Below are positions 1,991-3,547 of a DNA stretch of 52,098 nucleotides, piece after piece. This DNA comes from Lysobacterales bacterium. GTDB lineage: Bacteria > Pseudomonadota > Gammaproteobacteria > Xanthomonadales > SZUA-36. The position numbers and the translations under genes were made by a program. Below the pieces are notes generated by a model. That model was not told where the DNA came from and searched no databases. It saw nothing but the letters and a program-made list of their open reading frames with translations. Location: positions 1-52,098 of the forward strand of contig WTJD01000289.1 in the NCBI GenBank assembly GCA_011524975.1, read 5' to 3'. The first letter of the stretch is position 1; each line of letters starts with the position of its first letter.

Positions 1991-2797
1991 TTACTGCAAC
2001 AGGTTCCAGCCGCCGGGCTCGGCGTCAAAGTGAAAGTGAATCGGCCCGTCCACCTGGCCTTTCATGAACTGATTGACCGCGGGGTTCTTGCTGTCCAGAA
2101 GTTCTCCGGGAGGTCCTTCGCCCGCAATGCGAGCATCCGCCAGGATATAACAGTAGTCCGCCAGCTTGCTCATTTGACGGACATTGTGCGTGACCACGAC
2201 GCTGGTGAGTCCGAGCGCGTCATTCGTTTCCCGCATGAGTCTGCCGATTGTCGACACCGCGATGGGGTCCAGCCCGGACATCGGCTCGTCGTATAACATG
2301 AGACCCGGGTCCATCACCACGGCCCGCGCCAGCGCCACCCGGCGCGCCATGCCGCCTGAGAGCTGGTCAGGCATCAGCTCTTCCGTGCCGCCCAGTCCTA
2401 CGGCATGGAGTTTAAGCATGACCAGGCGACGGATCAGCGGCTCGGGAAGCGTGCTGTGCTCCCGCAGGGGTGTGGCGACATTCTCAAACACGGTCAGATC
2501 AGTGAACAGGGCGCCATTTTGCAGCAGGATGCCGATACCCTTTCGGAATTGCTGCAATGACTTGCGTGACATGCTCGAAACGGGTTGGCCGTTGACCTCA
2601 ACGACACCATGGTCGGGCACCAGCTGGCCGGTGATCAACCGCAAGATGGTGGTTTTGCCGACACCACTGGGCCCCATGATGGCCACGATGCTGCCTCGAG
2701 GTATGTCCATGCTGACATGATCGAGAATCAGGCGATCTCCGCGGTGGAATACCAGGTCGCGGATTCGAATGGCGCATTCTGATGTCTGGTTACTCAT
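1991..2797 (-). CDS. mlaF: MlaF, lipid-transport ABC ATPase
   Basis: This ABC ATPase has 268 residues from the chosen start. It has a Walker A (GPSGVGKTT), a signature loop (LSGGMARRVALARA), a Walker B (LMLYDEPMSGLDP) and the switch histidine (VVTHN). I chose ATG at 2797 (MSNQTSECAIRIRDL) because a purine-rich AAGGGA sits just before it and ABC homology begins right after it. An upstream in-frame Met at 2860 would add 21 Arg-rich residues that look untranslated. MlaF powers the MlaFEDB transporter. It is the first gene of the operon, and a candidate promoter lies at 2859-2886. Confidence 0.95.
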   Translation of the reverse strand: MSNQTSECAIRIRDLVFHRGDRLILDHVSMDIPRGSIVAIMGPSGVGKTTILRLITGQLVPDHGVVEVNGQPVSSMSRKSLQQFRKGIGILLQNGALFTDLTVFENVATPLREHSTLPEPLIRRLVMLKLHAVGLGGTEELMPDQLSGGMARRVALARAVVMDPGLMLYDEPMSGLDPIAVSTIGRLMRETNDALGLTSVVVTHNVRQMSKLADYCYILADARIAGEGPPGELLDSKNPAVNQFMKGQVDGPIHFHFDAEPGGWNLLQ

Positions 2798-2858
2798 TCC
2801 CTTGGTTCTTTCAAGCGTAGCGCGTTCGACCGGTATGGCGCGGAGCGGGCGCCGCCGC

Positions 2859-2886
2859 ATACAAGTGGAGAATTGTAATACGTCAA
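2859..2886 (-). promoter_or_regulatory. Candidate sigma70 promoter for the mla operon
   Basis: On the minus strand TTGACG (2886-2881) is followed after 16 bases by TTGTAT (2864-2859), or after 17 by TGTATG. The site lies about 60 bases upstream of the mlaF start and just after the terminator of the preceding RNA locus. Prediction by eye. Confidence 0.45.
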
Positions 2887-2939: not shown

Positions 2940-2972
2940 AAAAAAAGCGAGGGAGGCTTTCGCCTCCCTCGC
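2940..2972 (-). terminator. Strong intrinsic terminator of the ncRNA locus
   Basis: A perfect 11-bp stem (GCGAGGGAGGC, 2962-2972 paired with 2947-2957) closes a GAAA tetraloop on the minus strand. It is followed by seven consecutive T residues (2946-2940). It ends the transcript coming from the promoter at 3363-3391 and separates that locus from mla. Confidence 0.92.
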
Positions 2973-3356
2973 CGGTGAAAGTGCCGGAACTCCGCTTATG
3001 GTGGACTGCAGATCCGCCTTGGCCTTTCCAACTTCGCCTGGCTCCGCTTCCGTTCTGCCCTTCGGTTGCCTGGCGCGGGTCTTTCTCCCGCCTTTCTTTA
3101 TCGACGCCAGAGCGTCTATCTCCAGGGATCGCGATTCCCTTTCGAGTCGCCTCATGGTACGACCGCTTCTTTTGGCAGAACCCGGTCGGGGCGACGCACT
3201 CTGTACCACCTGAGTGCTGGCCGTTCGTTTCACCCTCGCTGCATTCCGGCGGGTCGGCCTTCCTGCAGCTCCGCGTTGCTTCCGTTCCAGGTCTCGCGAC
3301 CCTTTCCTTCTCTCCCGCGGTCCCGATCTTTCGACCGGTGGGTTTCATCTAACGGG
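2940..3356 (-). ncRNA. Candidate large structured non-coding RNA, family unrecognised
   Basis: This stretch has its own promoter and terminator, and no reading frame looks coding. The open frames that cross it run straight through the terminator. In minus-strand order it forms a chain of perfect hairpins: 3338-3323 (6 bp with one G-T pair, GAAA loop), 3301-3290 (4 bp, GCGA loop), 3269-3238 (6-bp outer stem), 3217-3196 (6 bp), 3188-3160 (6 bp plus an inner 4 bp), 3139-3125 (4 bp), 3116-3103 (5 bp, TCTG loop), 3091-3075 (5 bp), then the terminator. Unpaired parts are purine-rich, with about fifteen GGA triplets. It lacks the diagnostic cores of RNase P RNA, tmRNA, 6S or SRP RNA as far as I can see. 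A regulatory or protein-binding RNA is possible; its function is unknown. The 5' end is estimated from the promoter. Confidence 0.65.
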
Positions 3357-3362
3357 GGATCT

Positions 3363-3391
3363 AAGTTACTACCATGGCCTCGCAGTGTCAA
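3363..3391 (-). promoter_or_regulatory. Near-consensus sigma70 promoter of the structured RNA
   Basis: On the minus strand a perfect -35 TTGACA (3391-3386) is separated by 17 bases from TAACTT (3368-3363). This places the transcription start near 3356. There is no coding gene between it and the terminator at 2940, so it most likely drives the structured RNA. Confidence 0.8.
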
Positions 3392-3547
3392 AGGGGTTGG
3401 TGTGTCATTTACCCTGACTAATTCATCTCGCACGTCACCAGAAATTCGCAAGCTTCTGATTAAAATAAGAAGCCTGATTTTTCCAGCTCGGAGCTTTTGC
3501 GATGAAGCGAATTCATTTGGTCAAAATTAAATCAGAGGCGATTCCCG

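Follow-up and report, generated by a model that had tools for sequence, protein, structure and literature searches.

The window, that is, the whole 52,098-nt stretch of DNA from a Lysobacterales bacterium analyzed here, holds on its minus strand an interval of about 415 nt between a gene for a Urate_ox_N-domain membrane protein and mlaF, and this raises the questions of what the interval encodes and whether it belongs to mla. The first-pass annotation had described it as a structured RNA of unknown family running from promoter to terminator beside mla. Upon inspection, TTGACA-N17-TAACTT, the interval of ~415 nt, and an 11-bp GAAA hairpin followed by seven Ts were found at exactly the minus-strand positions claimed for them, and the −35 sequence TTGAC was retained in all of the 33 homologues. 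Based on these sigma-70 promoter and intrinsic terminator signals, the locus is a predicted standalone structured RNA gene, whose parts and surroundings are listed below.

2940..3358, minus strand: RNA gene of ~419 nt, with the start predicted near 3358-3354
3363..3391, minus strand: promoter as read from the sequence, TTGACA (3391-3386), a 17-nt spacer and TAACTT (3368-3363)
2940..2972, minus strand: intrinsic terminator, an 11-bp GAAA hairpin (2972-2962 / 2957-2947) and seven Ts (2946-2940)
3497..3512, minus strand: conserved 16-nt element ATTCGCTTCATCGCAA, 116-118 nt before the promoter in most homologues and 19 nt before it in genus g8
3338..3358, minus strand: conserved 5′ block CCCCCGUUAGAUGAAACCCAC, containing the 5′ strands of P1 (CCGUU) and P2 (ACCC)
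3272..3337, minus strand: array site 1, the 66-nt basic unit with two GNRA hairpins (0 to ~400 nt in relatives)
3112..3271, minus strand: domain 1 (P2a/P2b around GGCCGACCCGCC; 3′ strands of P2 and P1) and domain 2 (P3-P6, GAGAUAGACGC)
3203..3208, minus strand: pseudoknot strand 1, UGGUAC in the P3 loop, with 99.5% of cells paired with GUACCA among 33 sequences
3155..3160, minus strand: pseudoknot strand 2, GUACCA, 3′ of P5
3108..3111, minus strand: array site 2 in hairpin P7 (GACGC..GCGUC), only a 4-nt loop in the window
2973..3107, minus strand: domain 3, with GCGUCGAUAAA, P8, P10, P11 and the conserved GUUGGAAAGGCC..GCGGAGUUCC
3006..3011, minus strand: CUGCAG in the P11 loop region, self-complementary; UGCAG found in 28/31 homologues, and P11 covaries
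1991..2860, minus strand: mlaF (ABC ATPase), followed by mlaE; downstream neighbour, outside the RNA unit
2872..2877, minus strand: TACAAT, −10-like element of a separate mla promoter, 3′ of the RNA terminator

The interval encodes a structured RNA that matches no Rfam family

A protein gene was considered and rejected. The earlier statement that no credible reading frame is present was borne out, with stops in all three sense frames in 25/25 homologues checked and with lengths of the conserved blocks that are not kept modulo 3; conservation at the protein level, which had been named beforehand as evidence against an RNA, was searched for across these 25 homologues and was absent. In contrast to a random sequence of the same dinucleotide composition, the window RNA is predicted to fold with a minimum free energy of −169.3 kcal/mol, compared with −149.9 ± 6.1 kcal/mol for dinucleotide shuffles (z = −3.16, reached by 0/100), which indicates a fold better than chance. 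Two GNRA hairpins are present, not counting the terminator, as had been claimed, while the eight perfect hairpins also reported hold roughly for the minimum free energy fold but not in detail for the comparative structure described below.

Searching the whole window against Rfam 15 (4227 families, among them RNase P, 6S, SRP RNA, tmRNA, riboswitches and the large noncoding RNAs) yielded no family at the gathering score, and at E ≤ 10 the best match within the RNA stretch scored 17 bits against a cut-off of 218 and covered the terminator hairpin alone. That the RNA stands in for a housekeeping RNA was also rejected: an ordinary RNase P RNA was found in the window's genome, 6S RNA in 35 and SRP RNA in 31 of the 39 genomes of the family. 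Only in some draft genomes, that of the window among them, was no SRP RNA found, and this was ascribed to assembly incompleteness because a congener (G001) has SRP RNA.

Covariation supports a three-domain core with a central pseudoknot

Comparison of the homologues shows a folded core of ~365 nt in three domains, the central of which has four covarying helices and a loop-to-linker pseudoknot. The helices are P3 (a hairpin), P4 (long-range), P5 and P6, and the pseudoknot joins UGGUAC in the loop of P3 to GUACCA on the 3′ side of P5. Among 25 sequences, 98.5% of the central-domain cells were paired and changes on both sides were found at 14 of the 31 pairs, compared with a mean of 6.0 pairs in shuffles, 0/500 of which reached the observed number. 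After adding the divergent g8 and g11 members, the 33 sequences still had 96.3% of cells paired and compensatory changes at 16/31 pairs (again 0/500 shuffles). When the partners were slid as a control, pairing fell to 32-45% from 96-98%; the structure was derived from the same sequences as were used for its scoring, a circularity that the slid and shuffled controls reduce without eliminating. Covariation was likewise observed in P2, P2a, P8, P11 and the terminator.

The UGGUAC/GUACCA pairing is almost invariant, with only one-sided G-U changes, and covariation therefore says little about it; the predicted pseudoknot is supported by strands that are perfectly complementary in nearly every sequence, together with the few G-U changes. 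Divergent members of g11 and g8 (L072, L082, L036 and L037) keep the promoter, P3 with GGUGGUA, the pseudoknot, P6 and GAGAUAGACG, while their domain 1 is different and their domain 3 altered. The CUGCAG of the P11 loop is a possible kissing loop; its UGCAG is absent from L094 and L072, and L036 was scored as lacking it only because its sequence had been cut short for this comparison. A lack of covariation had likewise been named beforehand as evidence against an RNA. With protein conservation absent, covariation strong and Rfam without a match, the description of the locus as a promoter-to-terminator structured RNA of unknown family is upheld, and we regard the existence and independence of this RNA as close to certain.

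The RNA is enlarged by hairpin arrays at one of two sites

Total length varies from 363 nt (L025) to 904 nt (L029). The comparison shows that enlargement is clade-specific and achieved by tandem arrays of tetraloop hairpins inserted at one of two fixed sites, hereafter referred to as ports. Port 1, located after GAAACCCACC, holds ~0, 66, 122 or up to ~400 nt across members, and port 2, within the P7 hairpin, holds 4 to 556 nt, including the hairpin arrays of ~200-556 nt in L026-L034; in the members examined, a large array was found at one port or the other and never at both. The arrays are composed of short GNRA- or UUCG-capped hairpins joined in tandem by GGAA-type purine stretches, with periods of 28/56 nt (L077), 36 nt (L074 and L092) and 34/58 nt (L026 and L029). 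Members with the largest arrays have 9-11 tetraloop hairpins, compared with about one in shuffles.

The RNA is restricted to one bacterial family

When 61 related genomes were searched at the DNA level, the element turned up across the window's family, which is probably the GTDB family around isolate SZUA-36, with nothing convincing outside it. R1, a covariance model built on the central domain, matched 33 of the 39 genomes in the window's GTDB family, including 21 of the 22 good ones and 13 of the 14 genera, with no match in ~360 other genomes of the order, and a model that includes the divergent members (R2) had no match in 368 other genomes of the class. Over 84,980 species, a degenerate pattern retrieved 30 contigs, all from uncultured metagenome-assembled genomes (MAGs) and labeled mostly as Lysobacterales or Xanthomonadales, otherwise as Chromatiales, Oceanospirillales, or only Gammaproteobacteria/Proteobacteria; this pattern was matched exactly and the R1 and R2 searches used stricter filters, so that very distant relatives could be missed. 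Every member is known from MAGs.

In G035 and G061, a second copy seems to result from contig ends that cut one gene. The absence from G004 is uninformative, since the closest MlaF-like match there has only 34% identity and the assembly may lack the locus. As far as genome assemblies reveal, the RNA is shown to be lineage-specific and near-universal in one family, each genome having a single locus if split contigs are left aside. Nothing on the family or on a matching large RNA emerged from literature searches.

A conserved 16-nt element precedes the promoter

Upstream of the RNA promoter, the 16-nt element ATTCGSTTYRTCGCAA was found with at most one mismatch in 36 of the 39 family genomes. 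It recurs in intergenic positions after gpsA and before trmL in many family genomes (L146-L148, L151-L154, L156, L162, L164 and L165; both genes were named by eye from the translated sequence), and is probably the site of a putative DNA-binding protein.

Other sequences were also observed in this region. L023-L034 and others have a second conserved box, approximately TATTCAKNAACTTGNAATTT, which is located ~50-70 nt before the promoter and thereby falls between the −35 sequence and the 16-nt element. Genus g12 (L070, L083, L021, L013 and L016) carries the DnaA-box-like 9-mers TTATCCACA / TGTGGATAA upstream of the RNA promoter, two of them perfect in L070 and likewise in L083.

A single RNA-phage contig carries part of the RNA

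Among 2.9 million viral contigs, the sole match was a 4.8-kb contig (IMGVR_UViG_3300042536_000016, hereafter L099), and no second viral example was found among them. L099 encodes a leviviricete replicase (PF03431, 1e-98), a maturation protein (PF03863) and a probable coat protein, and ~413 nt of the RNA lie on its minus strand (L099:227-639) between the replicase stop and the contig end. This copy is 73-90% identical to members of genus g9 (R1 126 bits, 1.7e-32). It covers approximately the stretch between the P2 strand and P7, with array 1 and domains 1 and 2 but without the 5′ end and without domain 3; its pseudoknot has one mismatch (UGGUUC).

Following the matched replicase region, the nearest phages, whose replicases are 36-40% identical, have ~180-400 nt (~180-200 nt in the two best-covered phage pairs), compared with ~700 nt in L099, a longer tail such as an insertion would give. 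The piece may be a natural capture of a host RNA or an assembly chimera. Single-stranded RNA (ssRNA) phages have no DNA stage, and the piece is therefore RNA-derived either way and forms an indirect, RNA-level trace of the gene. A literature search for host RNAs captured by RNA phages gave no relevant result.

A trans-acting scaffold is the favored function

Synteny with mla bears directly on function. In mainstream homologues and in the divergent L068, the RNA lies upstream of mlaF and is co-oriented with it, as would be expected of a cis-acting leader, a riboswitch or attenuator of the mla operon in which the terminator serves as the switch. Against this, a TACAAT element near mlaF, after the RNA terminator, is conserved in most mla-linked members, and this indicates that mla very probably has its own promoter. 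In genus g8, moreover, mlaF is found on a different contig from the RNA, whose neighbour is an aspartokinase-type gene and, on its opposite side in L088, ychF; in addition, the terminator is very strong in all members and no anti-terminator alternative was seen. Co-transcription with mla and a constant place upstream of it are thus contradicted by the separate promoter element and by the unlinked g8 members, and a leader of mla was rejected as the main reading and is very improbable. Its own promoter, the separate mla promoter element and the unlinked g8 copies together indicate that the RNA is an independent gene, so the reported location beside mla stands as synteny but not as a functional unit.

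For an independent RNA, sponging of CsrA/RsmA is a candidate role, by which GGA motifs in the purine-rich joints would titrate CsrA and arrays would grow to add sites. CsrA is encoded in 31 of the 39 family genomes, and each RNA has 9-45 GGA, a number that rises with length and is often slightly above that of shuffles (z up to 2.8). However, GGA is not in excess in several of the members (z −1.8 to 0.6), and the E. coli CsrB control has its 9 GGA wholly in hairpin loops (z 3.0), compared with 0-3 in loops within the family, whose loops are GNRA or UUCG; nor would a sponge need a strongly conserved, pseudoknotted core. Since GGA motifs were not found to be both enriched and placed in hairpin loops, a CsrB/RsmZ-type sponge is disfavored and appears unlikely. 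We consider equally unlikely a trans-acting base-pairing RNA of the Hfq/ProQ type, for which the unpaired GAGAUAGACG, GUCGAUAAA and CGACCC, all nearly invariant, could serve as seeds; such an RNA would be unusually large and structured, and these segments sit at structural junctions. A ribozyme or mobile-intron derivative would be compatible with the size, complexity and pseudoknot, yet no Rfam intron or ribozyme matched, and the RNA has one locus per genome in stable synteny, no associated open reading frame, and its own promoter and terminator; this origin appears very unlikely.

We favor a trans-acting scaffold that works like OLE, ROOL or GOLLD, to which we assign a probability of roughly 0.5. 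The RNA would be made in quantity and act in trans, its rigid core offering a conserved binding or assembly surface, while the hairpin arrays would form rod-like peripheral extensions, built of short stems with near-symmetric purine-rich (GGAA-type) joints, whose size could change without disturbing the core. It might thereby scaffold a ribonucleoprotein or an RNA-only homo-oligomer, as OLE, ROOL and GOLLD do. The self-complementary UGCA of the P11 loop perhaps helps oligomerization and would suit kissing-loop oligomers, though it is only suggestive.

Extending the scaffold reading, the RNA could be the founding member of a modular class of RNA assemblies, with a pseudoknotted core and two alternative ports at which a lineage could lengthen or shorten its tandem hairpin arrays, and whose array and central domain would have been captured in the 3′ untranslated region of a natural ssRNA phage. 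We consider this extension to be speculative and rather doubtful; if it were true, the captured piece could shield the phage genome or attract whatever host factor the RNA binds. The RNA represents a genuine, previously undescribed and lineage-restricted class of large structured RNA absent from Rfam, and it shows that large structured RNAs outside Rfam are still to be found within single uncultured bacterial families. With ~33 sequences, a covariation-backed core, size variants that differ mainly in their arrays and a possible phage capture, the family would permit a direct test of core versus periphery.

Comparison with known large bacterial RNAs

Bacterial RNAs known to be this large and complex are few, and what most of them do (OLE, ROOL and GOLLD) is unsettled. 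Similar to ROOL and GOLLD, the RNA described here is large and multi-domain, with a pseudoknot, possible kissing loops and purine-rich joints, and is known mainly from environmental sequence. ROOL and GOLLD are mainly borne by phages and plasmids, whereas the new RNA has no match to their Rfam models, a smaller core, and a chromosomal location in which it is vertically kept. With OLE (ornate, large, extremophilic) RNA, it shares the character of a large, ornate, independent bacterial noncoding RNA with very conserved nucleotides and an expandable periphery. OLE works in trans, as the new RNA is proposed to do; nevertheless, the two have no match in sequence or structure as judged by the Rfam models, and OLE, whose partners are OapA/B/C, belongs to a different phylum, being found in Gram-positive, Firmicutes species. 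OLE is about 600 nt long (PMC9723947) and forms a dimer by cryo-EM, while ROOL and GOLLD form RNA-only nanocages, and these homo-oligomers are all held together by kissing loops and A-minor contacts (PMC12286853).

The raiA motif, or ModT RNA (PMC11706538), is likewise an independently transcribed structured noncoding RNA with a complex fold and lineage-wide conservation, transcription of the new RNA being predicted; at about 205 nt (PMC12286853), raiA occurs in other phyla and without hairpin arrays, and its Rfam model did not match. Finally, the sRNAs CsrB and RsmZ are of comparable length and share repeated hairpins and GGA motifs with the new RNA, whose GGA motifs, unlike theirs, are not in hairpin loops and which is organized around a compact conserved core rather than a string of repeats.
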